Shown: in pieces, positions 34,411-54,352 of the stretch
Position numbering within the stretch: the stretch's first letter is position 1
Layout of the letters: each line of letters opens with the position of its first letter
From: Alphaproteobacteria bacterium
GTDB lineage: Bacteria > Pseudomonadota > Alphaproteobacteria > Rhizobiales > Rhizobiaceae
Reading direction: 5' to 3'
Length of the DNA stretch: 64,000 nt
NCBI GenBank assembly: GCA_024742485.1
Contig: JANSYK010000003.1
Coordinates: 1 to 64,000 of the forward strand
Made by a program: the position numbers and the translations under genes
Notes under the pieces: generated by a model
What the model was told of the DNA's origin: nothing
The model's input: the letters and a program-made list of their open reading frames with translations, nothing else
Database searches by the model: none

Positions 34411-34735
34411 AGCAAATCACCGTTCGCGGACAGTCCGGCCGTTTCTCACTACGGCTTTGGCGAGGAAGTTGATCCAACCTCGGAACTTCCCGTAATCAGC
34501 CTCCGGAAGCCGACGGCGAATCCAATGGCTGACGGAAACTGAATCCTCCCTCGAAAGACATCCCGACAAAGGTGCTGATGTGTGGTTCGCCGACGGGCAC
34601 GAATGTCCGGGTCAGCCGACATCTGCGTATTGTTGGATTATTCAATTGACATTTTTACTAGTGGGATCATAGTGGGCAGAACGGAATTCGACTTGGTCAT
34701 CTGTCGCCTTGAGCGGCATTTGAGAGGGATAAGCA
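34411..34735. other. Intergenic region of 325 bp with promoter near its right end
   Basis: No gene is recognised here. It holds a 7-bp inverted repeat (GGAAGTT 34464-34470 / AACTTCC 34484-34490) without a T-tract, and on the minus strand an open stretch of about 64 codons (34420-34611) without a convincing start or family. It could be a decayed gene or chance. The right end carries the TAGTGGG element and promoter of the next operon. Confidence 0.5.
34646..34680 (+). promoter_or_regulatory. TAGTGGG direct-repeat promoter element, site A
   Basis: TTGACA (34646-34651) and CATAGT (34668-34673), 16 bases apart, form a plausible promoter. Over its spacer and -10 lie two identical heptamers, TAGTGGG at 34659-34665 and 34670-34676, exactly 11 bp apart and followed by CAGA. 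The same arrangement recurs at 44623, 51200 and 53615. Heptamers one helical turn apart suggest a protein binding one DNA face and competing with RNA polymerase, that is, a repressor site. Confidence 0.6.
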
Positions 34736-35710
34736 ATGACCTACAAAGCCTATGCAGCCACAATGCAGAGCGTCTGGTTCAGTGAGGATGAGGGACACAG
34801 CTGGAACCGGCTGCTAACGCCGACAGGCGGCTTCTACAATGAGGCGCGGGTTTGGGCCGTGACCACCCATCCCGAACGGCCCGGCGAAGTCCTGGCGGGT
34901 TCGGACCAGGGGCTTTACCGCTTCACTGAGGAAACCGGACGGTTCGACTATATTCCGTCTCCGATGGATCAGTTGCATATTCTGAAAATAGCGCAGGACC
35001 CGCACGATGCCGATTGCATCGTCTGCGGAACACGCCCCGGCGAGATATTTGTCACGGAAGACAATGGAGAAAGCTGGACCCGCTCGACACTCGATGCGTC
35101 GACGGAGTGTTGGTTCATCAACACCAGCCGCGTGACCTCCATCCATTTCGATCCACGGGATCGGGACACGATCTGGATCACGGTGGAGATCGACGGCGTT
35201 TTCCGATCCACCGATCGCGGCAAGACCTGGCAACTCATCATCCGGGGATTGCATGACAATGATTCACACGATCTGGTCTTTCGCGATCACGATGACGGCA
35301 GCCGGACCATATTGTGCTCGACCGAAGATGGCGTGCACCGCTCATTCGACAATGGCGAGACCTGGGAGCAAATGAAAATCCCTCAGGCAAAGTGGGACTA
35401 TTTCCGCAGCCTCAAGCAGCCGGCGGAAAACAGCGATACGGTTATCGCGTCTGTCGGTGACAAACCGTCCGGGGAGGCGGGTGAGTTGCTGATCAGCCGC
35501 GATTTCGGTGAAAGCTGGGATATCTGCACGATGTCACATAAGGCCAATTCGACCCTGTGGTCGATCGGCACCAACCCGGCTGATACCAGCCTTTTGTTCG
35601 CCGCGACGATATTCGGTCAGATATTCAAAAGCACTGATGGCGGCGCAAACTGGCAAAAAATGGCGCGTGAGCTTGGCGAGATCCGAATGATCACCTGGGC
35701 CCCGGTCTGA
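34736..35710 (+). CDS. Asp-box beta-propeller protein (sialidase/Vps10-like repeats)
   Basis: 324 residues with six Asp boxes (S/T-x-D-x-G-x-x-W): SEDEGHSW, TEDNGESW, STDRGKTW, SFDNGETW, SRDFGESW and STDGGANW, enough for most of a six- or seven-bladed propeller. There is no signal peptide, so it should stay in the cytosol, unlike sialidases. No catalytic Arg triad or FRIP motif is seen. It is the first gene after promoter element A and precedes an unknown 192-residue protein and a GMC oxidoreductase. A lactonase, lyase or scaffold role is possible; none is supported by a motif. Confidence 0.85.
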   Translation: MTYKAYAATMQSVWFSEDEGHSWNRLLTPTGGFYNEARVWAVTTHPERPGEVLAGSDQGLYRFTEETGRFDYIPSPMDQLHILKIAQDPHDADCIVCGTRPGEIFVTEDNGESWTRSTLDASTECWFINTSRVTSIHFDPRDRDTIWITVEIDGVFRSTDRGKTWQLIIRGLHDNDSHDLVFRDHDDGSRTILCSTEDGVHRSFDNGETWEQMKIPQAKWDYFRSLKQPAENSDTVIASVGDKPSGEAGELLISRDFGESWDICTMSHKANSTLWSIGTNPADTSLLFAATIFGQIFKSTDGGANWQKMARELGEIRMITWAPV

Positions 35711-35722
35711 GAGGAGAATCCC

Positions 35723-36301
35723 ATGTCCTATTTTCTATACAAGCCCCATGTCATAGGGCCGGAAGAAAGCATCACGACGCCCGACATCATGGTCGATCGT
35801 GTGTTCGAGAACGGCCGGCTCCGTTCGGTCAACAGCGTATCGAGCGATTGCTGGCGGCAGGTCGAGACAGTCGAGACAGGTGTTTCAGCACAGGCAGCCT
35901 ACGCCGTCGTCGCACTGGGTGGCGGCGCGCTCATCGGGCCGGCCGTTGTGGTGTCCGATGGAGCGATCATCATTGCCCGCAAGGCATGGCGCCTGAACAA
36001 TCTCGACGGCCATATTGCCGATGTCACACTGAACGGCACAAAACTATCGGATCTGGACCTTCCTGCCGCCATCATCGAAAAGGCTGGAGGATCAGGTGAC
36101 ACCTTGCCAAGGGGCTACATGCTGTTATGCACCGCGCCGGGCGACGTCCGGGATGCCGTGCTTTCCGACCCGATTCGGCAGCGTAGCCTGTCCCACAGGA
36201 TCGTGCTTGATCCTGTCGATCATGACCGTTGGGGAACGGCCCGGCCGAAGCCCCGCTATTCCGTCGGCCCCACGCAAAAGGACGTTCAGCATTTCATATG
36301 A
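35723..36301 (+). CDS. Hypothetical protein, 192 residues
   Basis: I do not recognise this family. The protein is soluble and without signal peptide; it has a Gly/Ala/Val-rich stretch (AYAVVALGGGALIGPAVVV, about 52-70) that could be a buried beta-alpha turn or weak membrane contact, and a Pro-rich C-terminus. AGGAGA lies 6 bases upstream of the ATG. It lies 12 bases after the Asp-box gene and 25 before the GMC gene, so the three are probably co-transcribed and act together. Confidence 0.78.
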   Translation: MSYFLYKPHVIGPEESITTPDIMVDRVFENGRLRSVNSVSSDCWRQVETVETGVSAQAAYAVVALGGGALIGPAVVVSDGAIIIARKAWRLNNLDGHIADVTLNGTKLSDLDLPAAIIEKAGGSGDTLPRGYMLLCTAPGDVRDAVLSDPIRQRSLSHRIVLDPVDHDRWGTARPKPRYSVGPTQKDVQHFI

Positions 36302-36326
36302 ATTGCCTGCAGATTGAACGCTTGCC

Positions 36327-37964
36327 ATGGATGCCGATGAGACCGCCTGGGATTTCATAATCGTCGGTGCCGGAACAGCAGGATGTGTTCTGGCCAATCG
36401 CCTCAGTGCCGATCCGGCGATGCGGGTTCTCCTGCTCGAGGCCGGTGGCCGCAACCGGTCACCGTGGATTCGCATTCCGGTTGGGTATTTCAAAACGATC
36501 GGTGATCCCGCGCATGACTGGTGCTTTCAGACGGAACCCGAACCTCATTTGAACGGGCGTCGTCTGAACTGGCCGCGCGGACGAGGTCTTGGGGGTTCAA
36601 GCGCAATCAACGGGCTTGTCTATGTGCGCGGTCAGGCCGAGGATTACGATCACTGGGGCCAGGTGGCAGCGGGCTGGTCCTATGATGACGTACTGCCTTT
36701 TTTCCGGCAGGCGGAGCGACAGCAGCGGGGTGCCGATCGCTGGCATGGCGCCGATGGTCCGGTCGATGTCTCTGACGGTTCGGCGCAATTCGCCATCACT
36801 GATCTGTTCCGACAGGCGGCGCTGGCGGCCGGGCTGCCAGACAACCTCGACTGCAATGGCGCCGCGCAGGAGGGTGTCGGATACTACCAGACGACAACGC
36901 GAAACGGCCTGAGAGTCAGCGCTGCGCATGCCTATCTGGATCCTGTCCGACGCCGGACAAATCTGAAAATCGTGACGAATACGCAGGTGCTGGGCGTAAT
37001 GTTCGAGGGCAGGCGTGCGACGGGTGTTCGTCTTCGCCATCCGGATGGATCGGCTGGGATAGAGATCGCTCGGGGTGAGGTGATTCTCAGCGCCGGAGCT
37101 ATCGGTTCTCCTCATTTGCTACAGCTATCGGGTCTCGGAGCTGCCGAACTTTTGCGATCACACGGGATCACACCGATTGTGGATGCGCCTGGCATAGGGA
37201 GCGGGCTGCAGGATCACCTGAAATTCCACAACGCCTACCGCGTTACCATTCCCACGCTGAACGGGCGTCTTAACTCGCCTCTCGGCAAGACCCTCATGGG
37301 AATACAATATCTGCTGACACGCCGCGGACCCTTGACCATGGGCGCAGCGCCCGTCTTTGCGTTTCTGCGCAGCGCAGCAGGGGCCGGCCGCCCAGACATC
37401 CAGTTCCACGTGGTTCCATGGAGCAGTGATGATCCCGCAAAGGGCTTCCACCGGTTCCCGGGATTTGCTGTTTCGATCTGTCCCATTCGCCCTGAAAGCC
37501 GTGGTAACGTCCGACTGACCTCTGCTGACCCGCAAGTAGCGCCGGCGCTGAGTGCCAATTATCTGGCCACCGAATACGACCGCCAAACGATTGTCGCCGG
37601 TCTTCGTCAGGCGCAGCGTATCTGTGGGATGAACCCGATCCGTGACGTTATCGAAACTGAAGTCTGGCCAGGTCCGGCATTGGCAGGGGCATCCGACGCG
37701 GAGCTGCTGGAGGCCATCAGGAACCAGGTCACGACGATTTTTCATCCTGTTGGATCAGTTGCCATGGGCGACAGCGAAACCGCTCCGCTGGATGCGCGCT
37801 GCCGGGTTCGCGGGGTCGACGGATTGCGGGTGGTCGATGCTTCGGTGATGCCTGCGATCGTGTCCGGCAATACCAACGCTGCCGTCAACATGATCGCAGA
37901 GATGGCAAGCGTTATGATCCTTGAAGATCAGCAGTGCAGGACGCATCAGTCCGGAACGATGTAG
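36327..37964 (+). CDS. GMC family FAD-dependent oxidoreductase (alcohol/choline dehydrogenase-like)
   Basis: 545 residues. FAD binding is shown by DFIIVGAGTAGCVLANRL and by LLLEAGG; the GMC signature RGRGLGGSSAINGLVYVRG lies near residue 90; the second signature GAIGSPHLLQLSG is at about 255; the C-terminal FHPVGSVAMG and SGNTNAAVNMIAE hold the catalytic His/Asn pair. It oxidises an alcohol to an aldehyde or acid; family members act on choline, aryl and terpene alcohols and sugars. Its 3' end overlaps the convergent AhpD-like gene by 19 bp. Confidence 0.92.
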   Translation: MDADETAWDFIIVGAGTAGCVLANRLSADPAMRVLLLEAGGRNRSPWIRIPVGYFKTIGDPAHDWCFQTEPEPHLNGRRLNWPRGRGLGGSSAINGLVYVRGQAEDYDHWGQVAAGWSYDDVLPFFRQAERQQRGADRWHGADGPVDVSDGSAQFAITDLFRQAALAAGLPDNLDCNGAAQEGVGYYQTTTRNGLRVSAAHAYLDPVRRRTNLKIVTNTQVLGVMFEGRRATGVRLRHPDGSAGIEIARGEVILSAGAIGSPHLLQLSGLGAAELLRSHGITPIVDAPGIGSGLQDHLKFHNAYRVTIPTLNGRLNSPLGKTLMGIQYLLTRRGPLTMGAAPVFAFLRSAAGAGRPDIQFHVVPWSSDDPAKGFHRFPGFAVSICPIRPESRGNVRLTSADPQVAPALSANYLATEYDRQTIVAGLRQAQRICGMNPIRDVIETEVWPGPALAGASDAELLEAIRNQVTTIFHPVGSVAMGDSETAPLDARCRVRGVDGLRVVDASVMPAIVSGNTNAAVNMIAEMASVMILEDQQCRTHQSGTM

Positions 37965-38476
37965 CCGGTCTCGAAATGCCGCCGACCGCGCTGTTGAAAC
38001 TGCGTTTCATTGGCACTGATTCCGTGTCCCATGACCAAGCGGTTCATGAAGGCGAACAGCGCCGACACGGCAATGGCATCGTGCAGCGCATCTTCGCTCC
38101 ATCCTGCAGCGTACACAGCATCCGCATCGGCTCGGATCATCCGATGCGGTGTCAGCACCAGTTTTCGGATGAAGGCCAGCAGAGCGCGCTGTTTGTCACC
38201 GAGCGGCGCGGTTTCGAAATCATCGACCAGGTGCTCAAGCAGTCCGGGTTCGATACCGAACAGTCGGGCGGTTTCGGCGTGAATGCCGGCGCAATAGTGG
38301 CAGCCACCAAGGGCCGAGGAGAATGCACCGATCAGTTCCCGCTCCTTCACGGAAAGATCGGATGGGCCGCGCATGACGACATCATTGGCCTGTGCAAAGG
38401 GTCGATAGATATCCGGCCGGTGAAAGAAGATCTGTTCGACACGGGAATCGTCCGTGATGTAGCTGGTAAAGGCCAT
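37946..38476 (-). CDS. AhpD-like / carboxymuconolactone decarboxylase family protein (peroxidase-related)
   Basis: 176 residues. SALGGCHYCAGIHAETA contains the C-x2-C-x3-H motif of AhpD, and the helical bundle of the family fits. This subgroup is annotated as peroxidase-related and may reduce peroxides through its Cys pair. The ATG at 38476 has GGAG 5 bases upstream; earlier in-frame starts would run far into the preceding hydrolase gene. It is the last gene of the minus-strand TRAP/GST operon. Peroxide protection beside flavin oxidases is plausible. Confidence 0.85.
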   Translation of the reverse strand: MAFTSYITDDSRVEQIFFHRPDIYRPFAQANDVVMRGPSDLSVKERELIGAFSSALGGCHYCAGIHAETARLFGIEPGLLEHLVDDFETAPLGDKQRALLAFIRKLVLTPHRMIRADADAVYAAGWSEDALHDAIAVSALFAFMNRLVMGHGISANETQFQQRGRRHFETGYIVPD

Positions 38477-38487
38477 GAATACTCCGT

Positions 38488-39312
38488 TCAGTTCTGATCC
38501 GAAATCGCCCGCTCCAGGTGGGCGAAGAGCGGGCTGTCCGGTACGCCATACTCTCCGATGATCTTGAAGTGATCCGCTTCCGGGCTTTCGAACATCCGGA
38601 CAGGGTTTCCAGCGGATTGACACAGTTTTGCGAAGAGCTGCGACTGCCGCTTGAAGGCGGACGTCTCCTTGCCGCCCAAACCGACCAGAATCGGCAGGTC
38701 GGAAGGCGGCAAATGGTGGATCGGACTGGCCGCATGCGCCGTTTGTTCCGTCAGATGCAACCATTCATTGGAAGTTTCACCAATCAGTGGCGAGAGGTCG
38801 AACAAACCGCTGATAACACTCAACGAACGAATACCGGTCGGTCGGTCTTGGCGATCTGACCAACACGCGGTTGCCGCCATGGCCGCCAGATGCGCCCCGG
38901 CCGAATTGCCGGTCAGGTGCAGGGCGTTGACGTTGAGGTCCAGGGTGCCGGCATTGTCGTCAATCCAGGCAACCGCATCTCGGGCATCGGAAACGATGGC
39001 GCTCAGCCGGGCTTGCGGCGCCAGTCGATAGTTTACTGTGACCCAGGACACGCCGCGGGCATTCCAGGCTGGGGCCGGAAACCGTCTGGCGTCTTTCGAT
39101 CCCGCGCGCCAGTATCCGCCGTGAAAAAAGACGAGAACCGGCGCATGGGGACCAGCGGAAAAAACATCAAGTCTCTGGCGCTCATGCGCACCATAGGCGA
39201 CATCCAGACGAGCGCCGGGACGTTGGGCAGCGTCTCGCGACTTCCGTTCATACTCAGCTTGAAGGGCAATCACGTCTGGCGTTCCGGGATCGAGATCGTG
39301 ATCAGTGTTCAT
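38488..39312 (-). CDS. Alpha/beta hydrolase (esterase/arylformamidase-like)
   Basis: 274 residues. VLVFFHGGYWRAGSKD is the H-G-G-x-W oxyanion-hole motif of the hormone-sensitive-lipase/kynurenine-formamidase group, LTGNSAGAHLAAM is the nucleophile elbow with the catalytic Ser, and EADHFKII gives the catalytic His. It probably hydrolyses a small ester or formamide in the cytosol. The ATG at 39312 overlaps the GST stop by 11 bases; earlier in-frame starts lie inside the GST gene. Confidence 0.86.
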   Translation of the reverse strand: MNTDHDLDPGTPDVIALQAEYERKSRDAAQRPGARLDVAYGAHERQRLDVFSAGPHAPVLVFFHGGYWRAGSKDARRFPAPAWNARGVSWVTVNYRLAPQARLSAIVSDARDAVAWIDDNAGTLDLNVNALHLTGNSAGAHLAAMAATACWSDRQDRPTGIRSLSVISGLFDLSPLIGETSNEWLHLTEQTAHAASPIHHLPPSDLPILVGLGGKETSAFKRQSQLFAKLCQSAGNPVRMFESPEADHFKIIGEYGVPDSPLFAHLERAISDQN

Positions 39313-40129
39313 GACGCGTCTCCAATCCGGCCAGAATTTGTTCCACGGTTTCAGCGGTCTCCCGCCCGCGGCTTGTGAGGGTCTCGATGTTTTCCGGGTC
39401 ATACCAGTCCAGAACCGCCCTGGCGCTGTCGCGTGCCCTCAGTCGGCCATACCAGTCCGCCACGGCTGGACGCTTGCGCCACAGCGCATCAAGTTGAAGC
39501 AGATCAAGCCGGATCATGTAGGATGTGTAGGCGACATCGGCGATCGAATGGTGGTCACCAATCAGCCAGATCGAAGATGAAAGCCGCTGTTCGAAATCGG
39601 CGATGAGAAGGTCAAATCGCATGATTGCCGCTGCAAAGGCCGGTGCGTGGATGCCCTTATACACAACATCCTCCAGCCAGGCACGGCTCTTGTTATTCAT
39701 GGTCTGATCAATGGCTTTGGAAAGCTCGGCACGCTCAGTGCTGCCGGCCTTTGCAATGACGTGGTGACGATAGGCGATCGCATAGGTCGCCACGGACGCC
39801 GCGTGGTGTATGCCCGAAACATCATTGTCGAGATTTTGCAGAAGCAGGCGCGCGGCGGCGCGGTCCGCTGCATTGTCCGGCCGCAATGAGTGCTGCGGAA
39901 AGGCATCTTCGAGATACTCCAGAATGATGTTGGATTCGATGATGGCCCGCCCGTCATGCACCAGCGTGGGCACCACGGAACGTGGATTCAGCTTCCGGTA
40001 GCCCGGTTCGAACTGATCCCCGTCCAGTCGCAGCAATCGGCTTTCCCAGGGCAGGGATTTCTCCGCCAGCGCGACCCTGACCTTGGCGGCACAGACCGAG
40101 GAGTTGTGATGGTAGAGCGTCAGGGACAT
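39302..40129 (-). CDS. Glutathione S-transferase
   Basis: 275 residues. The thioredoxin-like N-domain (LYHHNSSVCAAKVRVALAEK; the cis-Pro in SVVPTLVHDG; glutathione contact in IIESNIILEYLEDAFP) and an all-helical C-domain are clear. The LEYLEDAFP segment resembles the bacterial beta-etherase/LigF branch as well as general theta-like GSTs, so ether cleavage of lignin-type compounds is possible but unproven. It follows the TRAP transporter genes by about 40 bases. Confidence 0.9.
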   Translation of the reverse strand: MSLTLYHHNSSVCAAKVRVALAEKSLPWESRLLRLDGDQFEPGYRKLNPRSVVPTLVHDGRAIIESNIILEYLEDAFPQHSLRPDNAADRAAARLLLQNLDNDVSGIHHAASVATYAIAYRHHVIAKAGSTERAELSKAIDQTMNNKSRAWLEDVVYKGIHAPAFAAAIMRFDLLIADFEQRLSSSIWLIGDHHSIADVAYTSYMIRLDLLQLDALWRKRPAVADWYGRLRARDSARAVLDWYDPENIETLTSRGRETAETVEQILAGLETRHEH

Positions 40130-40170
40130 TGGTGGGCTCCGGTCGTATGATCCGTTCTAAGTGCGCTGCG

Positions 40171-41487
40171 CTAGCGTTCCATCAGGGATGGAAGGAAAAG
40201 CGCGATATCGGGAAGCGCGACCAGAAGGAAGAACAGCAAAAGCCCGCATCCCAGATAGGGCAGGCCGGCCCGTGCGACCTCGCCCATGGTCGTGCCCTTC
40301 GGGGCAACCCCCAGCATCACGAAGAGATTGAGGCCGAAGGGGGGTGTGACGCCGCTCATCTCCAGCGCCAGAAGCATCACAACACCGAACCAGACCAGAT
40401 CAAATCCCTGCGCCATTGCGATCGGGAAGAAAATCGGAATGGTCAGCATCATGATCGACGCCTGATCCATGAACATGCCCATGAAAAGCAGGATTGCGAA
40501 CATCGCGATGATCACCATCACTGGTGTCAGTTCGACGCTGCTGACGGCGCTGATCATGCCGGAGGTCGCACCCGAAAACGCCAGAACCTGTGAAAAGGTC
40601 GATGAGGCGATGACGATCAACAGGATCATGCAGGTCACCTTCACGGTTCCACGCAGGGATTTGTAGATGGCTTCGAAAGTCAGGCCGCCGAACGCATAGG
40701 CAACGATCAGCACACCGAGCACCCCGAATGCCGCCGATTCGGTTGGTGTGGCAATGCCCAGCAGGATCAGGCCGACAACCAGGAATATGATCACCGATAA
40801 AGGCAGGATGTGGGTCACGATGACCCTTACTTTTGTACGCCAGGGATGATCCACTGGTTCGGTGTCCGGAACACTGTCCGGATTCAGCCGGATCATCACG
40901 AAGATCAAAACGAGATAGAGGCTGGCCAGCATGAGCCCCGGCAGCACGCCGGCGATCAGCAGCCGGCCGATATCGATTTTCGCGAGACTGCCGAGCAGCA
41001 CCGCCAGTCCGGAGGGCGGGATGAGGATGGCCAGTCCACCGACCCCCAGAATAGGCCCGATGGACATGTGTTTCCTGTAGCCACGTTCCGTCATTTCAGG
41101 AACCAGCAGCGATCCGAGCATCGCGGTGTTGCCCATGCTGGTGCCGGTGAGGGCGGCAAAGGTGGTCCCGCCGAATATGGTGACGTAGGACAGGCGCCCG
41201 CGCATGCGACCGATCAGCATGTCCACTGCGTCGAAGACCTTTTTTGCAACTCCGGCGTTGAAGAACAGTTCACCCATCAGAAGAAAGAGCGGGATCGGCA
41301 GAAAGGCAAAATGGGTCACCGCCACACTGGCATTGGCCGTTACTTGCGACATGCCGGCAAATCCGGAAAGCCAGTACATGCCGCCAAAACTGACAAGCAG
41401 GAAGGCAAAGGCGACCGGCATCGAGAGGAACATCAGGAACAGGATTGCCCCAAGTGCGAGACCGCCCGAAACATACCATTCAGGCAT
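40171..41487 (-). CDS. TRAP transporter large permease (DctM-like)
   Basis: 438 residues, close to the usual 425-440, with about 12 hydrophobic segments and the family motif GTSMGNTAMLGSLLVPEM. It forms the Na+-dependent transport channel with the small subunit encoded before it. The final MER ends a typical DctM. By family it carries organic acids; the neighbours (O-demethylase, GST, hydrolase) suggest an aromatic or related carboxylate here. Confidence 0.95.
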   Translation of the reverse strand: MPEWYVSGGLALGAILFLMFLSMPVAFAFLLVSFGGMYWLSGFAGMSQVTANASVAVTHFAFLPIPLFLLMGELFFNAGVAKKVFDAVDMLIGRMRGRLSYVTIFGGTTFAALTGTSMGNTAMLGSLLVPEMTERGYRKHMSIGPILGVGGLAILIPPSGLAVLLGSLAKIDIGRLLIAGVLPGLMLASLYLVLIFVMIRLNPDSVPDTEPVDHPWRTKVRVIVTHILPLSVIIFLVVGLILLGIATPTESAAFGVLGVLIVAYAFGGLTFEAIYKSLRGTVKVTCMILLIVIASSTFSQVLAFSGATSGMISAVSSVELTPVMVIIAMFAILLFMGMFMDQASIMMLTIPIFFPIAMAQGFDLVWFGVVMLLALEMSGVTPPFGLNLFVMLGVAPKGTTMGEVARAGLPYLGCGLLLFFLLVALPDIALFLPSLMER

Positions 41488-41514
41488 GCTGTCCTCCCGG
41501 CGTGTCGGGCCGCA

Positions 41515-42039: not shown

Positions 42040-42046
42040 GGCGGCC

Positions 42047-43045: not shown

Positions 43046-43202
43046 CGCTGTATCCTCTCTGCGTTTTAAGGAATATGTACGAATTGATGCGATCCGCATG
43101 TTTCAAGTTCAGTCATTGCGCATCCAACTGGTACCTCACTGATTTCCTTCATTCGGCCGGTTCGCGACCATTCACGGTCCTGTGTGCATCTGTACTCCCG
43201 AA

Positions 43203-44640: not shown

Positions 44641-44696
44641 CAGGATTACAAGAGTTTTTTTGGAATCACCGCCGATCGGAGCAGGAAGGAGGACGC

Positions 44697-45173: not shown

Positions 45174-45236
45174 AAGCGTTGACAACCACCTGGACGCGGC
45201 GGAAAACCCGTGGAGTATTTCCAGGGAGGCGTTTGC

Positions 45237-46670
45237 GTGACTGCACCGATCACAAAACAGGACACGAAGGGGCTCGTGGAAACGATCAACGGGTTCTGCG
45301 AGAAACACGGTATAGCCGTTTCGACATTTGGCCGTTTGGCGGTCAATGACGGCAAGTTCGTGCGCCGCATCAGCAAGGGAAGCTGGATCGAGCGGGAAAC
45401 CTTTCAAAGGGTCCAGGATTTCATGGATCGTGCCGAACGGGGCGAGATAGCGCTGCGCGGACGGCCGCGGCGAAAGAAGGAAGAATCCAACTCCCACACC
45501 ATGGCGGAGTTGATCAACCAGCAGACTTCGATTCGCACACCCGGCAGTTTTGATCTTCATGAACAGCGGTATCGGTTCCATGTCTTCGCTGCGACCACCA
45601 ATGTGTCGTGGGTCCAGGCCGACATCATCACCGATGACCTGTTGAAACTCTCGGCAAAACCAGACGGGTTGCGCCTTTTCTATTCGCCGATGGACAACGG
45701 AATTACCCTGGCGCGCGTGCTCAGGGCGTTGCATGCGAAATACCCCGATATGCCCATTCAGGTCGTCATCAAGGGATGGGGGCTGGAGGACCTTCGCAAC
45801 ACGATGAGCCGAATGGTTGACCGATTGTCGGAACACCCCCTCACGGTGCTTGTCCTGACCAATCTCTACACACGAGAAGCCGTGCAACTGAAAAAAACCG
45901 CTCCCGAAGGTCCCGGGGAGATCGTCTGGCGTGATGTCGAACTGAGCGGCAAGTACAGCTATGACTATCAACAGCAGGTGGCCGGTCTGTTTTCAGATTT
46001 GGCGAATGAGTGGACCATATTTCGCGGCGAGGATGACTTTCCCGTCTATTCCCGGCCAAGCGTCATTACGCTGTACAGAGCCGATCAGCGGCACGCCCTT
46101 CGCGATTTCATTCCACAGCAGGGCGGATCGGATCTGCAGTTTGACTATTGTTTCCTGAATCATCCCTATCTGCACAGCCACACCATGAAGTTCAGGATCG
46201 AATACATTCTGCAGCCGGTAATCCGGCACCTGGCACCCGGCGGACAGATGAAGGTGGTGCAATCCCTTGGCGAAGATCCCGCCCATGAAATCATACGCCG
46301 GGTCTGGCCTGATCAGCCTCTCAATTGCGTCTCGCGGCACGACATCATTTCAGAGCTGCGCAAATCATTGCGTGATGAACTCAAGGATCTGACGTTCAGC
46401 GGCCTGACAGATGCCCGTTCGCTGTTTCGATTCGACATGCACACGCTGCCAACGTTGCAGGACAGTGAGCAGCGCAATCTGTCTCCACAGGGAGCCTGGA
46501 GCAATGCTGTCTATTTCGCGCAGGTGAAGGAAGAGCTTGTCCAGATTGCCATCGGGGAAGGCTCCCGTCACATGGACGTCACGGCTGATGTCCTGCGAGA
46601 ATATGGTGGGCTCTGGTTTGTCAATGAAACCTTCTCGATAACCCGCAAGCCAAAAAAGAAGCGAAAATGA
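45237..46670 (+). CDS. HTH plus degenerate SAM-methyltransferase-like protein
   Basis: 477 residues. The first ~65 look like a small helix-turn-helix (INGFCEKHGIAVSTFGRLAV, with FVRRISKG as recognition helix and wing). The rest resembles a SAM-methyltransferase-like family seen in alphaproteobacteria: a Rossmann-like entry at about 145 (LRLFYSPMDNGITLARVL), HPLTVLVLTNLY, FDYCFLNHPYLHSH and VIRHLAPGGQMKVV. The Gly-rich SAM loop is poorly kept (SPMDNG), so it may bind a ligand rather than catalyse. GGGAGG lies 7 bases before the GTG at 45237. It is a candidate regulator of the TAGTGGG sites; this is inference. Confidence 0.68.
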   Translation: MTAPITKQDTKGLVETINGFCEKHGIAVSTFGRLAVNDGKFVRRISKGSWIERETFQRVQDFMDRAERGEIALRGRPRRKKEESNSHTMAELINQQTSIRTPGSFDLHEQRYRFHVFAATTNVSWVQADIITDDLLKLSAKPDGLRLFYSPMDNGITLARVLRALHAKYPDMPIQVVIKGWGLEDLRNTMSRMVDRLSEHPLTVLVLTNLYTREAVQLKKTAPEGPGEIVWRDVELSGKYSYDYQQQVAGLFSDLANEWTIFRGEDDFPVYSRPSVITLYRADQRHALRDFIPQQGGSDLQFDYCFLNHPYLHSHTMKFRIEYILQPVIRHLAPGGQMKVVQSLGEDPAHEIIRRVWPDQPLNCVSRHDIISELRKSLRDELKDLTFSGLTDARSLFRFDMHTLPTLQDSEQRNLSPQGAWSNAVYFAQVKEELVQIAIGEGSRHMDVTADVLREYGGLWFVNETFSITRKPKKKRK

Positions 46671-46674
46671 ATTG

Positions 46675-48756
46675 ATGCAGGTTCTGGACGAAACCCAATA
46701 CTCCAAATTGCGGATGTGCTTCGCACCGGAAAGTGCTGCTATCATCGGCGCCTCGACGGACCCCATGAAATTCGGCGGCAGGGCACTCAAATTCTGCCTG
46801 GAACGGGGCTATGGCGGCCGCCTCTACCCGATCAACGCCAGAAACGACATTGTTCAGGGAGTCACGGCCTATCAGAGCGTTGCCGATCTGCCGGAGGCAC
46901 CGGAAATTGCGGTCATTGCCGTGCCGGCGCCGCAGGTGCGTGACAATTTGCTCGCGGCAGGCAAAAAAGGGTGCAGGATTGCCATTGTCTATGGTGCGCA
47001 ATTTGCCGAAGCCGGCGGTGACGGTCGCGCGCGTCAGGATGATCTGCTTTCGATTGCCCAAGATCACGACATGCGGATGATCGGCCCCAATTGCATGGGC
47101 GTTATCTCACTCGCATCCGGTTTTGTCGCCAGTTTTACCGCCGCCCCGGAACACCATGATGGCAACGGATGGCCACCGGTCGGAAGTGTTTCGATTGCCA
47201 GCCAGTCGGGTGCGGTTGGTATTCAGATGTTTGCCCAACTGCGTGACCGCGGACTGGGGCTGGCAAACTGGATATCGACCGGTAATCAGGCCGATATCGA
47301 TGTTGCGGATGCCATCGCCTTCTATGCCGGCGATCCGGCCACCCGAACCATTGCGGTCTACATGGAAGACGGCGCGCGGGGATTGAAACTGATTCAAGCG
47401 CTGGAATTGGCACGGCAAGCAAAAAAACCGGTTGTGGTGCTCAAGGTCGGCACGACACCGCTGGGGGGTACGGCGGCGGCCGGCCATACGGCGTCGATGT
47501 ATGTCGAAGACAGGGTCGTGGATGACCTTTTCGCCCAATACGGAGTATTGCGGGCTGCGTCGGTCAACGAGTTGATCGACCTCGTCGCAGCCTGCAATGC
47601 CGGTGTGATACCGCGATCCAACAGTGTCGCCGCAGTCTCCGTTTCGGGCGGTGGTGCCGTCATGATCTCCGACGCTGCTGCCCGTGGGGGCTTGGCACTG
47701 GATGATTATCCCAAGGACGCTCTGGCTGAGCTGAAGGCTGAAAACGCCTTTGTCAACGATCGAAATCCCATCGACATTTCCGCACCATCCATGAGCAATA
47801 TGGCCATCACGGGCGGTCATTTGAAATGGGGAACGGAACGCGGACAATCTACGATGCTCGGTTACATCAGCCATGTGCCGCTGGTGCCGCGAACGCGTGG
47901 CGCAATCATGCCGCAGCTTCTCGAATTGACGAAAGGTCATCCCGACCAGCTTGTTGCCATCGCCGGAAACTTTCACCCGGAGGATCGCAAGGCACTGGTC
48001 CAGACAGGGGTCGCGGTGTTCGACGATCCGACGGTTGCAACGGATGCGGTGGCAAAATTGGTAGCGACCGGAAAGGCCTTTGGAAATCCAAGCCAGCGTC
48101 CCTCGGTTCCCGAGCGTTTGACGGACGATATTGGCGCCATGCTCGCGCGCGCCGGAATTGATTTGGTTGACAGCGTCAGGATTGAAACCGAAGCAGACGG
48201 GCTCGCAGAGCTGGACCGTCACGGTGACATTGTTCTCAAACTTGCCGCTCCTGATCTGCACCACAGGACAGAACTGAACGGCGTGTTCATTTCCCTGCAA
48301 TCACCGGACGCCGTGCGCCGGGCCTTTGCCAGTCTTTCCGAGGCGGTGCTGCACCACGGCGGGACGTACCGGGATTTGCATATCATCGCCGAACCGATGA
48401 TCCATGGTGTCGAGTTTCTGGTCGGAACACGCGCGGATCCGCATTTCGGTCCGTTGATCCTGCTGGGTTCCGGCGGCTCGCACTGCGAACTTTTCGATGA
48501 TGTGGTCTATGCCAAGGCGCCCGTCACTGATGATGAGGCGCGACGGATGATTGCTGCGGTCCGAGCGGCGGCCATGCTCGATGGCTGGCGCGGTGCGCCG
48601 GCGGTCGATCGTGACGCCCTTGCCAACGCGCTTGTGGCGCTGTCGATTGCGGCGGCCGAGCTTCCGTCGCTCGAAATCAATCCAATGATCGTGACACCGA
48701 ATGGCGCAACCGGTGTCGATCTTGTCTCCGCCCGGGAGTGTTCGCACATTGAATGA
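46675..48756 (+). CDS. ADP-forming acyl-CoA synthetase (FerA-like; CoA-binding plus ATP-grasp)
   Basis: 693 residues. AAIIGASTDPMKFGGRAL starts the CoA-binding domain, SIASQSGAVGIQM the succinyl-CoA-ligase-like domain, AAGHTASMYVED holds the likely phospho-His (about residue 270), and the C-terminal ATP-grasp domain starts near 470 and includes LPSLEINPMIV. Both halves are fused in one chain, as in FerA feruloyl-CoA synthetase and related NDP-forming synthetases. It activates a carboxylic acid to its CoA ester. Together with the hydratase and aldehyde dehydrogenase encoded next it fits a hydroxycinnamate route; the substrate is inferred. It overlaps the next gene by 8 bases. Confidence 0.88.
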   Translation: MQVLDETQYSKLRMCFAPESAAIIGASTDPMKFGGRALKFCLERGYGGRLYPINARNDIVQGVTAYQSVADLPEAPEIAVIAVPAPQVRDNLLAAGKKGCRIAIVYGAQFAEAGGDGRARQDDLLSIAQDHDMRMIGPNCMGVISLASGFVASFTAAPEHHDGNGWPPVGSVSIASQSGAVGIQMFAQLRDRGLGLANWISTGNQADIDVADAIAFYAGDPATRTIAVYMEDGARGLKLIQALELARQAKKPVVVLKVGTTPLGGTAAAGHTASMYVEDRVVDDLFAQYGVLRAASVNELIDLVAACNAGVIPRSNSVAAVSVSGGGAVMISDAAARGGLALDDYPKDALAELKAENAFVNDRNPIDISAPSMSNMAITGGHLKWGTERGQSTMLGYISHVPLVPRTRGAIMPQLLELTKGHPDQLVAIAGNFHPEDRKALVQTGVAVFDDPTVATDAVAKLVATGKAFGNPSQRPSVPERLTDDIGAMLARAGIDLVDSVRIETEADGLAELDRHGDIVLKLAAPDLHHRTELNGVFISLQSPDAVRRAFASLSEAVLHHGGTYRDLHIIAEPMIHGVEFLVGTRADPHFGPLILLGSGGSHCELFDDVVYAKAPVTDDEARRMIAAVRAAAMLDGWRGAPAVDRDALANALVALSIAAAELPSLEINPMIVTPNGATGVDLVSARECSHIE

Positions 48757-50188
48757 GGTCACACATTTAATCGATGGTCAGGCGGTCAGGGGCGAGGGCC
48801 CTGTGCTCGATGACATCGATCCTTCGAACGGCCGGGTCCTGACGCAGATGCCCGAAGCGACCGTTTCACAGACTGCCGATGCCGTCGCTGCGGCATCGCG
48901 CAGTTTTATGTCCGGGACCTGGGCTGGCGCACCTGTTCGAGAGCGACAGGACGTGTTGCGCGAGACGGCGTCCGCCATCCGCGCCGATGCCGATACGCTG
49001 ATCGATCTCCAGGTCATGGAAGGCGGGATGATACCCGCCAATGTGCGCGGACAGATTATGGGTGCTGCTGCCTGGTTTGACTATTTCGCAGATTATCTGT
49101 CTCGAGAGAGTGGTGAGATCTTCCGGCAATTGGACAATGTCACGACATTGGTCAACAGAGAGCCGATCGGGGTCTGTGCCCTGTTTTCTCCATGGAATGT
49201 GCCAGTAACCCTCAGTGCGATCAAACTCGCGCCGGCGCTTGCGGCGGGCAACTCGGTGGTGTTGAAGCCGTCGGAAGAAACGCCGATGGTGACCCGTCAT
49301 CTGGTGGATCTGATACAGGGCGCCAGGCTGCCGAGCGGCGTGCTGAATCTCGTCAACGGGCGCGGTACCGTCACGGGAGCGGCGCTGGCCGATGCGCCGG
49401 ATGTTGCAATGATCTCGTTTACCGGTGGAGCCGTCGGAGGGCGGGCAGTGGCAGAAGCCGCAGCCCGCCGTCAGGTTCCCTGCGTCATGGAACTGGGCGG
49501 CAAGTCGGCAACGATTGTCTTCGAAGATGCCGATCTGGACGCTGCCCTCGAGGGCGCCCTGGCGTCGATCTTTTCGTCCAACGGGGAAGCCTGCCTGGCA
49601 GGGTCCCGGATTCTCGTACAGGAAAGCGTTGCCGAGGAATTCACCAGGGCGTTTGTCGAGCGGACGAAGGCGATGGTGGTTGGGGCCCCCCGAAACGATG
49701 GCGTCAGCATCGGTCCGATGGTGTCGGCTGCGCACCAGTCACGCGTCCTGAGTTTCTTTGAAAGCGCCGAAAGGGATGGCGACCGGATTCTCTGTGGCGG
49801 GCCCATGCCTGATGGTGGAGAGGGTTTCTATGTCCGCCCCGGGGCGGTCATGATCGCATCATCAGACAGCCGCATCTGGAACGAGGAGGTTTTCGGTCCG
49901 GTGGCCGCGCTGGCGACATTTGGCGACGAAGCGGAAGCCGTGGAGCTGGCCAATGACAGTCGGTACGGGTTGTCCGGCTATCTCTGGACCCGAGATCTGG
50001 GGCGGGCGATGCGGGTGGCCGGCAGAATCCGCACCGGCACCATCGTCATCAATGCGCCCTTTATGCGCGAACTCAACGCACCATTCGGCGGCGTCAAGAG
50101 ATCTGGCGTCGGCCGCGAGGGCGGCACACATAGCTGGATGAATTTTACCGAGGCAAAGACAACCGTGATTCATCACGGCAAGGGATAA
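48749..50188 (+). CDS. NAD(P)-dependent aldehyde dehydrogenase
   Basis: About 479 residues. FSPWNVPVTL and KPSEETP bind NAD(P); the general base Glu is in VMELGGKSA and the catalytic Cys is in SNGEACLAGSR; the C-terminal EEVFGPVAAL and GVKRSGVGREGG are standard. It oxidises an aldehyde to its acid and could be a vanillin- or syringaldehyde-type dehydrogenase. The start is uncertain: TTG 48749 with coupling to the synthetase stop looks best; an ATG at 48701 lies inside the previous gene. Confidence 0.88.
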   Translation: MNEVTHLIDGQAVRGEGPVLDDIDPSNGRVLTQMPEATVSQTADAVAAASRSFMSGTWAGAPVRERQDVLRETASAIRADADTLIDLQVMEGGMIPANVRGQIMGAAAWFDYFADYLSRESGEIFRQLDNVTTLVNREPIGVCALFSPWNVPVTLSAIKLAPALAAGNSVVLKPSEETPMVTRHLVDLIQGARLPSGVLNLVNGRGTVTGAALADAPDVAMISFTGGAVGGRAVAEAAARRQVPCVMELGGKSATIVFEDADLDAALEGALASIFSSNGEACLAGSRILVQESVAEEFTRAFVERTKAMVVGAPRNDGVSIGPMVSAAHQSRVLSFFESAERDGDRILCGGPMPDGGEGFYVRPGAVMIASSDSRIWNEEVFGPVAALATFGDEAEAVELANDSRYGLSGYLWTRDLGRAMRVAGRIRTGTIVINAPFMRELNAPFGGVKRSGVGREGGTHSWMNFTEAKTTVIHHGKG

Positions 50189-50192
50189 CTCC

Positions 50193-50942
50193 ATGCTTAG
50201 CAATAAACGGATCATCGTTACCGGAGCCGCACAGGGCATTGGCGCCGTCATGGCAGCCGGGTTTTCGCGGATGGGTGCAAAGGTGGCACTGGCGGATATA
50301 GCCGATCCCGCTCCGGCCGTTCGGCGCATCGAGGACGCGGGCGGTGAGGCGCTGGGTTTGCAGGTCGATGTCACCCGGCGCGCGGATTGCGAGAAAATGG
50401 TCGCCGAAACCGAGGCTGCCTTCGGTGGCCTTGACGGTTTGGTCAACAACGCCGCGCTCTTTGCCACGCTCTCGATTGAAAATTTTGACGAAATCGACGA
50501 CGCCCTCTGGGACAAGGTCATGGCCGTCAACGTCAAGGGCCCCTGGCTATGCACCTGTGCCGCCACCCCGGCCATGGAGCGATCGGGTGGCGGGTCGATC
50601 GTGATGATCGCCACCAATCGCATCTTGCACGGATTTCCCGGCATGCTGCACTACGATGCATCCAAGGGCGGCGTGATGGCCATGACCCGTTCGCTCATAC
50701 GCGAGGTCGGCAAAAAGAACATTCGGGTCAACACCATCGCCCCGGGTCTGACCATGAGCGAGGGCGTGCTGGCGCGCGAGGGCATCGAGGAAAGAGCATC
50801 GTCCGTTGCTGCCGGCCGATCGCTGGCGCGCAACCAGGAGCCCGAGGACCTGGTGGGGGCAGCAGCATTTTTCTTGAGCGACCATTCCAGCTTCATTTCC
50901 GGCCAGTCACTGTGTGTCGATGGTGGAGGCCTGGTTCAATGA
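50193..50942 (+). CDS. Short-chain dehydrogenase/reductase (SDR)
   Basis: 249 residues. TGAAQGIGAVMAAGF is the NAD(P) loop, LVNNAALF the structural N-N-A motif, and the catalytic set is Tyr-x3-Lys in HYDASKGG with the Ser region in VMIATNRIL (where Ser is replaced by Thr). The Asp after the second strand (ALADIADP) suggests NAD rather than NADP. It could oxidise a benzylic or side-chain alcohol or a sugar-like intermediate. It lies 4 bases after the aldehyde dehydrogenase gene. Confidence 0.92.
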   Translation: MLSNKRIIVTGAAQGIGAVMAAGFSRMGAKVALADIADPAPAVRRIEDAGGEALGLQVDVTRRADCEKMVAETEAAFGGLDGLVNNAALFATLSIENFDEIDDALWDKVMAVNVKGPWLCTCAATPAMERSGGGSIVMIATNRILHGFPGMLHYDASKGGVMAMTRSLIREVGKKNIRVNTIAPGLTMSEGVLAREGIEERASSVAAGRSLARNQEPEDLVGAAAFFLSDHSSFISGQSLCVDGGGLVQ

Positions 50943-50984
50943 CCGGCAAGTTACGACTCGGCTTACTTTAGCAAGGAAAATCCC

Positions 50985-51182
50985 ATGGCAATTGTCAGTG
51001 TCACGATCATCGAAGGACGTGATCGAGAAACCAAGAACCGACTGATCGAGCGCCTGACAGCGGCTGTTGTCGACACACTCGATGCTGAGCCGCGTCAGGT
51101 TCGCGTGGTCATCAATGAAGTGGGGGACGGTGACTACGCAGTCGCCGGTAAACCCGTCTTTTTGCATGATCACTCACAATAG
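50985..51182 (+). CDS. 4-oxalocrotonate tautomerase-like protein lacking Pro-1
   Basis: 65 residues, the size of a 4-OT monomer. AIVSVTIIEGRDRETKNRLI aligns with the family's first strand and helix, and VRVVINEV matches the second strand; the two Arg residues used by 4-OT (in EGR and VRVV) are kept. The residue after the start Met is Ala, not the Pro that serves as the catalytic base after Met removal. AAGGA 7 bases upstream supports this start, and no Pro codon lies at a suitable alternative. It may be inactive as a classical tautomerase or use another mechanism. Confidence 0.85.
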   Translation: MAIVSVTIIEGRDRETKNRLIERLTAAVVDTLDAEPRQVRVVINEVGDGDYAVAGKPVFLHDHSQ

Positions 51183-51185
51183 GAC

Positions 51186-51217
51186 TTGCACATCTGTGCT
51201 AATGGGACGATAGTGGG
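51186..51217 (+). promoter_or_regulatory. TAGTGGG direct-repeat promoter element, site C
   Basis: TTGCAC (51186-51191) and GATAGT (51209-51214) are 17 bases apart. Two heptamers, TAATGGG (51200-51206) and TAGTGGG (51211-51217), repeat at exactly 11 bp and are followed by CAGAG and the hydratase ATG at 51223. Transcription from this -10 would start within a base or two of the ATG, so the mRNA may be leaderless. Confidence 0.6.
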
Positions 51218-51222
51218 CAGAG

Positions 51223-52020
51223 ATGCAGAACCAGACCGAAATTTCCGCAACGACCGAGGGCCCGGCAGGGATCATCAGGCTGGCTCGTCCACAGGCACGC
51301 AACGCCCTGACAGACACCATGCTGACAGAGGTGAAGACCGCCATGCAGGCATGGGAGCTGGATGACTCTGTTGCCGCCATTGTTCTGACGGGCGACGACA
51401 AGGCCTTTTGTGCCGGCGGTGACGTCAAGGGCACCGCTTCCAGCGACATGGAGCCATTTGACAAGTATCGCTACCGATACACCCACGCGGTTTGGCATGA
51501 TTTCATGCGTTACATGGGCAATTGCACCAAGCCAGTCATCGCTGCGATTGAAGGGTATGCCCTGGGCGGTGGATTGGAACTGGCGCTGCGCTGCGATTTC
51601 GCGGTCGGCTCGCAGACGGCAAAGCTGGGCCTGACCGAAGCCACGATCGGCCTCTTCCCCATTCTGGGCGGTGCCTGGTCTCTCACCCATGCAATTGGCG
51701 AGCGCAAGGCGCGTGAGCTTGCCTATACCGGTCGGCGGATTGATGCCGATGAGGCGCTGTCGCTGGGGCTCCTCAATCATGTGACGCTGCCCGGTGGCGC
51801 AGTTGGCAAGGCTCTGGAAATCGTTGATGAAATTGCCTCCAGTGCACCGCTGGCGGTGATGACACTGAAACAGGCAATCACCCGTGCACGGAGCCAAAGC
51901 TACGAGGAAGCACTGAATGCCGGTGGAGATCTGTCCGCGCTTTTGATGTTCTCGGAGGACCGTCAGGAAGGACTACGGGCGTTTTTGGAAAAGCGCAAAC
52001 CGGAGTTCAAAGGCAAATGA
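51223..52020 (+). CDS. Enoyl-CoA hydratase/isomerase family protein
   Basis: 265 residues. GIIRLARPQARNAL and AFCAGGDVKG give the CoA and oxyanion-hole parts of the crotonase fold; both hydratase Glu residues appear to be present, in LGGGLELALRCDF and LTEATIGLFP. The protein is not close to the FCHL/Ech branch of feruloyl-CoA hydratase-lyase as I recall its motifs, so a plain hydratase or a FerB-like role are both open. It begins its own unit under element C and overlaps the FAD oxidoreductase by ATGA. Confidence 0.92.
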   Translation: MQNQTEISATTEGPAGIIRLARPQARNALTDTMLTEVKTAMQAWELDDSVAAIVLTGDDKAFCAGGDVKGTASSDMEPFDKYRYRYTHAVWHDFMRYMGNCTKPVIAAIEGYALGGGLELALRCDFAVGSQTAKLGLTEATIGLFPILGGAWSLTHAIGERKARELAYTGRRIDADEALSLGLLNHVTLPGGAVGKALEIVDEIASSAPLAVMTLKQAITRARSQSYEEALNAGGDLSALLMFSEDRQEGLRAFLEKRKPEFKGK

Positions 52021-53591
52021 CGTCGACCTATGACGCGATCATTGTCGGCGGCGGCCACAATGGACTGACCTGTGGTGCCTATCTTGCCCGGGCCGGAAAG
52101 ACCGTTCTCGTTCTGGAACAGAAACCCTATGTCGGCGGCGCTTCCGTCACGGAGGAGTTCAGCCCGGGATTTCGCGCTTCGACCTATTCGTTCATCATGG
52201 GTCACCTGCACCCCAAGGTGATCGAGGAACTGGAACTGCGCAAATTCGGGCTCGAGAACATCGAACAGCCCAATGTGATCAATCCAACGGATGACGACTG
52301 CATCGTTTTCTCAAAGGACCCTGTGAAGACGCAGGAACAGATTGCCCGGTTTTCGAAGAAAGACGCAGAAAACTATCCCAAATTCTTCGAACGGCTGCAG
52401 TCGACCATCGAAATCCTGCGCATGCTGCAGCTCGAAACCCCGGTCAATCCGTTCCGCAAGGATCCTGCCGGACTGTTCAGGACAGCGCGGTTTGCCTGGA
52501 AGTTGCGCAATGCCGAAAAGGAGGTCTACAACCTTCTTCACGCCCTTTCGATGAGCGCCCATGACTATGTTTCCCGCTGGTTCGAGACGGATCTGGTGAA
52601 GGCCAAATTCATGTTTTGGGCAACGATCGGCGGCAATGTTGGCCCCTACAGCCCCGGCACGGCCTTCTACCTGGTGACTCATCTGATCGGGCAAACCGGC
52701 ATGAGCTTTGCTCGCGGCGGCATGGGTGCGATTGCCGACGCGATAGCCAAATCAGGCCAAGCGCATGGGATGAAAATCCAGTGTGACGCCTGGGTGGATG
52801 AGATCCTGGTGCGTGACGGAAAAGCCTATGGTGTGCGCCTTCGCTCCGGCGAAGAAATCCTGGGATCCCGGATCATCAGCAACGTTAACGCAAAACGCAC
52901 TTTTCTGGACATGATCAAACCCGATGATCTTCCAGATGAGTTTGTCGAGGACATCAAGGGGTTTCGCAGCCGGGGCATGAGCTTCAAACTGTTGTGTGCA
53001 GTTGACCGCCTGCCGCAATACAAGGGATTCAGCCGGGAAACGTCCGGTGTCGAATATCCATCCTACGCTCACATCTGCCCAACCCCGGAGTTTCTGGAAC
53101 AGGCTTTCCACGATGCCAAATTCGGCTGGTACTCGTCAGAGCCTTTCCTGTCTCCGAACGTGCCGAGCTATTATGACGACACGCTGGCGCCGGAAGGCAA
53201 ACATGTGGTGGTGTTTCAGGGCGGCGTCACGCCCTATGAGTTGCGCAATTCCGACTGGGACCGCGAAGGGCCGCAACTGGTCAAGAATGCGTTCAACGTG
53301 ATGGATCGGTTTGCGCCGGGCTTCTCCGACAGCGTGATCGATCACAAACTCTACACACCGCGCGATATCGAGGCCGATATCAATCTGCCCGGGGGCAATT
53401 CGCAACATGGCGAACTGACACTCGATCAGCTGTTCTTCATGCGCCCAGTGCCGCGCTACGCCGATTATCGTTCGCCGATCCGCCAGCTATACCAGTGCGG
53501 TGCCTCGACGCATCCCGGCGGCGCCGTGTCCGCTGTTCCCGGTCACAATGCGGCGCGCGAAATTTTGAACGACTGGAAATGGTCCCGGTGA
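52017..53591 (+). CDS. FAD-dependent oxidoreductase, phytoene-desaturase/PYROXD2-like
   Basis: 524 residues. DAIIVGGGHNGLTCGAYLAR is the FAD-binding loop and VLVLEQKPYVGGASVTEEF the second contact typical of CrtI/PYROXD2-like proteins; the C-terminal GASTHPGGAVSAVPGHNAA is the final FAD motif. No membrane segment is obvious. It probably desaturates or oxidises a CoA-linked or amine substrate along with the coupled hydratase. Carotenoid synthesis is unlikely here, because no crtB or crtE is nearby. Confidence 0.88.
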   Translation: MTSTYDAIIVGGGHNGLTCGAYLARAGKTVLVLEQKPYVGGASVTEEFSPGFRASTYSFIMGHLHPKVIEELELRKFGLENIEQPNVINPTDDDCIVFSKDPVKTQEQIARFSKKDAENYPKFFERLQSTIEILRMLQLETPVNPFRKDPAGLFRTARFAWKLRNAEKEVYNLLHALSMSAHDYVSRWFETDLVKAKFMFWATIGGNVGPYSPGTAFYLVTHLIGQTGMSFARGGMGAIADAIAKSGQAHGMKIQCDAWVDEILVRDGKAYGVRLRSGEEILGSRIISNVNAKRTFLDMIKPDDLPDEFVEDIKGFRSRGMSFKLLCAVDRLPQYKGFSRETSGVEYPSYAHICPTPEFLEQAFHDAKFGWYSSEPFLSPNVPSYYDDTLAPEGKHVVVFQGGVTPYELRNSDWDREGPQLVKNAFNVMDRFAPGFSDSVIDHKLYTPRDIEADINLPGGNSQHGELTLDQLFFMRPVPRYADYRSPIRQLYQCGASTHPGGAVSAVPGHNAAREILNDWKWSR

Positions 53592-53600
53592 GAAAAACCA

Positions 53601-53632
53601 TTGCCAATGAAAATTAGTGGGACCATAGTGGG
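53601..53632 (+). promoter_or_regulatory. TAGTGGG direct-repeat promoter element, site D
   Basis: TTGCCA (53601-53606) and CATAGT (53624-53629) are 17 bases apart, and two identical heptamers TAGTGGG (53615-53621 and 53626-53632) repeat at 11 bp, followed by CA. It lies 40 bases upstream of the operon that runs from the cysteine hydrolase to the galBCD-like genes. Of the four copies this and site A have two perfect heptamers. Confidence 0.6.
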
Positions 53633-54343: not shown

Positions 54344-54352
54344 GACCGCTCC

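Follow-up and report, generated by a model that had tools for sequence, protein, structure and literature searches.

What controls the catabolic genes in the second half of this stretch of Rhizobiaceae DNA, where one short direct repeat stands before four groups of genes? The stretch analysed (the window) comprises 64,000 nucleotides, positions 1 to 64,000 of contig JANSYK010000003.1 in assembly GCA_024742485.1 of an Alphaproteobacteria bacterium, and the element is a pair of heptamers close to TAGTGGG with a period of 11 bp. We estimate a probability of roughly 0.7 that the four copies, sites A to D, are operators of one catabolic regulon, bound as a head-to-tail pair by a one-component regulator encoded at 45237-46670 and repressing transcription. 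A sequence-only reading had proposed that the four sites define one shared regulon, and this proposal is borne out by the specificity of the element in the whole genome, its recurrence in six other genomes, a copy that moves with a TRAP transporter operon and the absence of the motif from 388 of 394 genomes of one family. Operators, targets and candidate regulator together make up a complete, testable regulon. The catabolic pathway concerned is uncharacterised, and only a small share of the alphaproteobacterial genomes examined carry it (6 of 394 in one family).

A direct repeat before the genes of one catabolic cluster

The four repeats of the sequence-only reading, starting at 34659, 44623, 51200 and 53615 and each followed by CA, are all present on the + strand, with the consensus CTAGTGGG-ANNA-TAGTGGG-CA. 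Site A (34659-34678; TAGTGGGATCATAGTGGG, that is, TAGTGGGATCATAGTGGGCA) precedes a unit for a BNR (Asp-box) protein and a GMC oxidoreductase, and site B (44623-44642; TAGTGGGCAGAAAATGGG, that is, TAGTGGGCAGAAAATGGGCA) lies between a leftward row of DesA-like and TRAP genes and a divergent unit with RidA-like and regulator genes. Site C (51200-51219; TAATGGGACGATAGTGGG, that is, TAATGGGACGATAGTGGGCA) precedes genes for an enoyl-CoA hydratase family protein (ECH) and a flavin adenine dinucleotide (FAD) oxidoreductase, and site D (53615-53634; TAGTGGGACCATAGTGGG, that is, TAGTGGGACCATAGTGGGCA) precedes an isochorismatase/ABC/galBCD unit. The positions given by the sequence-only reading, directly before each unit, are correct, but site C proves to be internal to a longer gene row because the tautomerase and ECH genes on either side of it are separated by just 40 bp, and its second heptamer ends 5 bp before the ECH ATG.

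We found WARTGGGN4WARTGGG exactly four times in the source genome (6,867,895 bases in 161 contigs), each match being one of sites A to D, and the backwards control pattern not at all; the chance expectation in the window was 0.01 (100 shuffles). Allowing up to three mismatches to TAGTGGGN4TAGTGGGCA yielded 15 places, compared to 82 for the backwards control. Four of the 15, at 0, 0, 1 and 2 mismatches, are the sites of the window, and the other 11 places all lie at exactly 3; beyond the four sites, the 6.87-Mb genome holds no place within two mismatches. Abundant hits in unrelated coding regions had been named as the danger to the shared-regulon claim, and the genome-wide search did not show them. 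The whole-genome counts and their controls rule out chance or a genome-wide repeat as the source of the sites.

The protein encoded at 45237-46670 was chosen for searches of relatives because its translation starts with a helix-turn-helix (HTH)-like sequence followed by a basic GRPRRKK segment, and a relative with 63% identity was found in a Paracoccaceae metagenome-assembled genome (MAG) of the GTDB contig collection (locus L067, genome G716). Among 394 genomes of that MAG's family, nine matched the protein at 1e-30: six, G716 included, carry orthologues with about 58-65% identity, and three carry proteins with 31-35% identity over the C-terminal part only. The syntenic cluster is present in all six orthologue-bearing genomes, and the element recurs at orthologous promoters, before the Asp-box gene in 6/6 (site A), before the RidA gene in 6/6 (site B) and before the isochorismatase gene in 5/5 (site D), a count that excludes G858, whose contig ends before that gene. 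Together with one additional site directly before the regulator gene in G858 and two at a moved TRAP operon (sites E), the seven genomes hold 24 sites (seven A, seven B, one C, six D, two E and one pre-regulator). All 24 have TARTGGG as first heptamer; in 21 it comes directly after a C, and in 20 the second heptamer is followed by CA. By column information the first repeat is better conserved than the second, which at the isochorismatase site reads TAGAGGG in G1030 and CAGTGGG in G917. The ECH and FAD oxidoreductase genes elsewhere follow isochorismatase (G900, G716) or tautomerase (G730, G917, G1030) without a site of their own. In G900, two transposase-like open reading frames (ORFs; named by eye) lie between the RidA and CoA ligase genes (L089-L091, oriented stretch 33335-34308), the usual position of the regulator gene, which is missing there.

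The clusters of G917 and G1030 are without the glutathione S-transferase (GST) and TRAP genes, and each of these two genomes has one further site elsewhere with one mismatch, CTAGTGGGCCGATTGTGGGCA, located between a gene for a FAD oxidoreductase (56-58%) and DctP-DctQ-DctM-GST genes 54-86% identical to those of the window. This site of its own at the moved TRAP operon suggests a factor that acts in trans and also controls the row running leftward from site B; very likely, the row of DesA, TRAP, GST and esterase genes divergent from site B also belongs to the regulon.

Across the seven genomes, TARTGGGN4WARTGGGCA with at most one mismatch matches 21 times, 19 times in the clusters, twice at the moved TRAP operon and nowhere else. 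Relaxing the limit to two mismatches raises the total to 46, of which 22 lie in the clusters (a gain of three), 2 at the TRAP operon and 22 elsewhere, compared to 70 for the backwards control; all 22 off-cluster places have exactly two mismatches. Seven of these off-cluster matches come with a locus; none of the seven is near TRAP genes, and ABC transporter genes adjoin one of them (L122). An exact pattern, CTAGTGGGN4WNRTGGGCA, occurs in 6 of the 394 family genomes, the same six that carry the orthologue, while its backwards control matches in 4 other genomes. The exact motif was absent from 60 relatives of the source genome and from 396 other genomes of its order (two overlapping sets), the latter searched with a stricter pattern that fits three of the four window sites and would miss looser ones. 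The cluster appears to be accessory among relatives of the source genome, whose genomes were searched for the motif alone.

The Asp-box protein was matched in 3 of 159 genomes, all three with the regulator. Homologues of the FAD oxidoreductase occur in 36 of 289 genomes of the class, the source genome included, with identities of at most 51% in the others, and four stretches fetched around plasmid homologues of the FAD protein and of an FCD-type protein of the window contained no such site.

A candidate regulator encoded within the cluster

The sequence-only reading knew of no described regulator for this site, and our own searches of the open-access literature, few in number, found no description of either the site or the protein; that reading did, however, miss the candidate at 45237-46670, which lies inside the span it had marked. 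The proposed regulator (+ strand; GTG start with GGGAGG upstream) is found with all seven clusters and combines an HTH-like region, the GRPRRKK segment, which we take to be AT-hook-like, and a putative methyltransferase-like domain. Comparing ORFs of at least 90 aa, we found that the groups common to all seven stretches are Asp-box/BNR, DUFx, RidA, the regulator, the esterase, the DesA-like protein and one antisense shadow, and the regulator was the only DNA-binding-looking protein noticed among them.

The protein, for which neither Pfam nor NCBIfam gave a match above cut-off, would thereby acquire a proposed function. Searching Pfam with 45210-46670 gave no match at E up to 5, GntR, FCD and aminotransferase families included, although HMMER's filters drop most weak matches, and phmmer against the PDB gave no usable match. 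The N-terminal 100 aa produced only a sub-threshold match to the CUT domain (E 0.016). AlphaFold2 run on the single sequence predicted four helices within residues 7-67 (block predicted local distance difference test score, pLDDT, 60-84), and less firmly so in a two-sequence run. The segments STFGRxxVNDGK and GRPxRxK are kept in 7/7 regulators. No relative was found on plasmids by tblastn or in viral contigs scanned with the family alignment.

Within the window's class, 20 of 289 genomes match the regulator, its own included; in the others, the relatives, full-length or C-terminal, have at most 38% identity. The C-terminal part of the regulator shares 24-38% identity with alphaproteobacterial proteins of a group for which we found no family name, many of them adjoining genes like methylenetetrahydrofolate reductase (MTHFR); of 20 loci with relatives, 8 have such a gene within a short flank, and one of the eight is the query's source locus. 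All 16 relatives printed carry DAGxGD, presumably the glycine-rich motif I that binds S-adenosylmethionine (SAM), whereas the seven cluster regulators have PMDNG in its place, NHPxLxSHTM instead of SQP(Y/F), and a GRPxRxK segment seen in none of the 16. From this glycine-rich motif of the relatives we read the C-terminal domain as methyltransferase-like. HTH-methyltransferase fusions with an intact DAGxGD occur in G636 and G628, and also in G551, where the gene is cut by the contig end. Two such fusions lie at L127:8331-12056 and L126:10366-11757, the former followed by MTHFR and Meth_synt_2 genes. These fusions may form a group of methyl-metabolism regulators.

One-component catabolic regulators, as this one would be, are a known kind; its protein family is unnamed in the libraries searched. 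It resembles most closely in its working the MocR-type factors (GabR, PdxR, TauR), which likewise join an N-terminal DNA-binding domain to a large enzyme-related C-terminal domain, serve catabolic clusters and in many cases bind direct repeats (PMC5320631). It is not a member of that type, however: it has no GntR match, its C-terminal part is methyltransferase-like by our own reading rather than aminotransferase-like, and its candidate repeats are one helical turn apart, whereas characterised MocR direct repeats are given as two or three turns apart (PMC5320631). The sequence-only reading had called direct repeats unusual for common dimeric repressors. They are indeed uncommon, but they have been described for the MocR-type factors and are listed for NanR, FarR and NagQ (PMC4494728, PMC5320631). 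The FadR-subfamily GntR protein NanR shares with our candidate the direct-repeat operator (PMC4494728) but not its domains, the candidate showing no GntR or FCD match, and the window's own FCD protein does not travel with the sites.

If the regulator binds the sites, a methyltransferase-derived sensor would join MocR and other regulators that descend from enzymes, and the pathway's substrate could be approached through its ligand. It seems to us an evenly balanced proposition that this protein founds an undescribed regulator family, in which a one-carbon methyltransferase-like protein gained an HTH, lost its SAM motif, kept its pocket as a sensor and came to govern a pathway with tetrahydrofolate (THF)-dependent O-demethylation through head-to-tail operators.

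Promoter layout and the direction of control

The overlap of three sites with promoter elements, noted in the sequence-only reading, is present as described: site A carries TTGACA-N16-CATAGT, site C TTGCAC-N17-GATAGT and site D TTGCCA-N17-CATAGT, all on the + strand. The putative -35 hexamers lie at 34646-34651, 51186-51191 and 53601-53606 and the corresponding -10 hexamers at 34668-34673, where the second repeat of site A is overlapped, at 51209-51214 and at 53624-53629. All seven A sites have a TTG at 13 bp upstream of their first repeat and all seven C and D sites (C 1/1, D 6/6) at 14 bp, and its presence 13-14 bp upstream in 14/14 sites of these classes indicates that the repeats cover spacer and -10. 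At site C the predicted -10 ends 8 bp short of the ECH ATG (51209-51223), so a transcript from it would be nearly leaderless. Site B has no + strand TTG at this distance, nor does any of the nine B and E sites. Instead, CAAG follows 7-8 bp after the site in 7/7 B and 2/2 E sites (44649-44652 in the window); read as CTTG on the - strand, it is possibly the -35 core of a promoter for the opposite, DesA/TRAP direction.

On this layout, two protomers of the regulator would bind head to tail with one HTH per repeat, because direct repeats of 11-bp period place two HTH elements on one face of the DNA in the same orientation. In the sigma70-type promoters predicted at A, C and D the operator would fill spacer and -10; at B, and beside the relocated TRAP genes of two genomes, it would lie between divergent genes; at each, bound protein would exclude RNA polymerase and repress transcription, including that of the regulator's own gene. 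Steric repression suits an operator placed between -35 and start. A pathway metabolite would then bind the altered methyltransferase-like domain and release the protein from the operator, and as a default guess we take this effector to be a pathway intermediate.

Several observations weigh against this account. We infer binding, direction of control and effector from the sequences, and MerR-type activation, too, can use an operator that covers the spacer. The -10-like hexamer xATAGT is present in only 9/14 A, C and D sites, and the G858 site preceding the regulator gene has no TTG at 13-14 bp. Site C occurs in one of seven genomes, the regulator gene of G900 is found upstream of site A and has no site in front of it, and the clusters of G900 and G858 are without TRAP genes and have no off-cluster site at up to one mismatch, TRAP genes elsewhere in these genomes not having been searched for. 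The exact pattern was chosen from the six genomes' own sites, so only its absence from the other 388 is informative, and the computed figure of 2e-13 overstates the association. Every genome found to have the cluster also has the regulator, and co-inheritance thus links the sites with the cluster as a whole and does not by itself single out the regulator. As to the protein, the C-terminal domain was not modelled by AlphaFold2 with one or two sequences (mean pLDDT 39), the methyltransferase-like label found no supporting match in Pfam, PDB phmmer or profile searches, and the one NCBIfam match, to PurU, was far below threshold (E 0.009, 15.7 bits versus a cut-off of 286).

The same operators and protein could serve activation instead, either by distortion of the spacer, as MerR-type factors do, or by recruitment of polymerase at the divergent promoters. 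We consider this unlikely, though not to be dismissed: the incomplete retention of xATAGT means that some promoters may be weak unaided, and the B and E sites, with CTTG on the other strand, make the promoter reading less canonical. Against activation, the predicted spacers at A, C and D have a normal length of 16-17 bp that needs no distortion, and the second repeat overlaps the -10. It is very improbable that the repeat is part of an unusual promoter, such as an extended -10 or one for an alternative sigma factor, rather than an operator; the overlap of the second repeat with the -10 position agrees with that idea, yet the first repeat is the better conserved while lying in the spacer, and both repeats are retained in the B and E sites, where the -35 spacing differs.

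Other proteins might bind in place of the unit B regulator. That a factor from outside the cluster does so, for example of MocR or AraC type, leaving the ORF at 45237 some other role, strikes us as doubtful in a high degree. MocR factors often use direct repeats, and the PdxR boxes AAAGTGGW(-/T)CTA contain AGTGG (PMC4494728, PMC5320631), but the half-sites here are one helical turn apart rather than the two or three of MocR direct repeats (PMC5320631). A widespread factor would also be expected to leave sites elsewhere, whereas 388 of the 394 family genomes, those without the cluster regulator, lack the exact motif, and no other regulator-like group shared by the seven clusters was noticed among ORFs of at least 90 aa. 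Inside the window, a Pfam scan of 45 distinct ORFs between 19 and 64 kb named a single transcription factor, the FCD-type GntR regulator at 30774-31487, and some FadR-subfamily factors, such as NanR, do use direct repeats (PMC4494728). Its own operon is not preceded by a site, and G716, which has the cluster and three sites, has no orthologue in its whole genome (28 matches, the best-scoring with 31% identity); the other five fetched stretches gave no match at 1e-15, and its closest plasmid relative (56%, Acidiphilium) lies beside HMGL, CaiB and deacetylase genes with no such site. Such a role for the FCD protein is accordingly most improbable, and we rejected it as the cognate regulator, since in the sequences searched it is not conserved together with the sites. 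Repression by the unit B regulator is the reading we retain.

Genes of the cluster and its surroundings

Unit A (34736-37964, + strand) encodes a BNR/sortilin-like protein (34736-35710), an unknown protein (35723-36301) and a GMC oxidoreductase (36327-37964). The row leading leftward from site B (37946-44567, - strand) comprises a CMD-domain ORF, an esterase, a GST-like protein, TRAP DctM, DctQ and DctP, and a DesA/LigM-like THF-dependent O-demethylase (43203-44567). In the other direction, unit B (44697-51182, + strand) encodes the RidA-like protein, the regulator, a CoA ligase, an aldehyde dehydrogenase, a short-chain dehydrogenase/reductase and the tautomerase, and unit C (51223-53591, + strand) the ECH protein and a CrtO/CrtI-like FAD oxidoreductase. 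Unit D (53672-62272, + strand) encodes an isochorismatase-family hydrolase, an ABC ATPase, substrate-binding protein and two permeases, a PIG-L protein (GalB-like), an RraA-like aldolase (LigK/GalC-like), a PrpF protein (GalD-like) and a DUF1932 dehydrogenase.

The pathway recalls syringate or vanillate O-demethylation through DesA and LigM in two respects. The protein encoded at 43203-44567 reaches 577 bits against DesA and 555 against LigM, though both values fall under the curated cut-offs (800 and 580), and unit D includes galBCD-like genes. The DesA-like gene, with its scores below the family cut-offs, suggests a methylated aromatic compound as the pathway substrate. The GalB/GalC/GalD-like genes (58961-61417), which close unit D, appear to be a local addition to the regulon: in five of the other clusters the sequence analysed continues beyond the permeases, and they were seen in none of these.

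Upstream of site A, the FCD GntR gene lies in a module (23767-33701) with HMGL-like, two deacetylase-like, isochorismatase, NlpA-type ABC, glyoxalase and MmgE/PrpD ORFs and a CaiB-like ORF (32469-33701), the last named by eye and outside the Pfam scan. A conjugative Acidiphilium plasmid (L009) carries related CoA transferase, HMGL, GntR (56%), deacetylase and isochorismatase genes, with the operator absent. Further left, 7307-23663 holds glycosyltransferases and a Wzm/Wzt-type pair that resembles a galactan exporter at scores below curated cut-offs, and this O-antigen-type locus adjoins the catabolic cluster.

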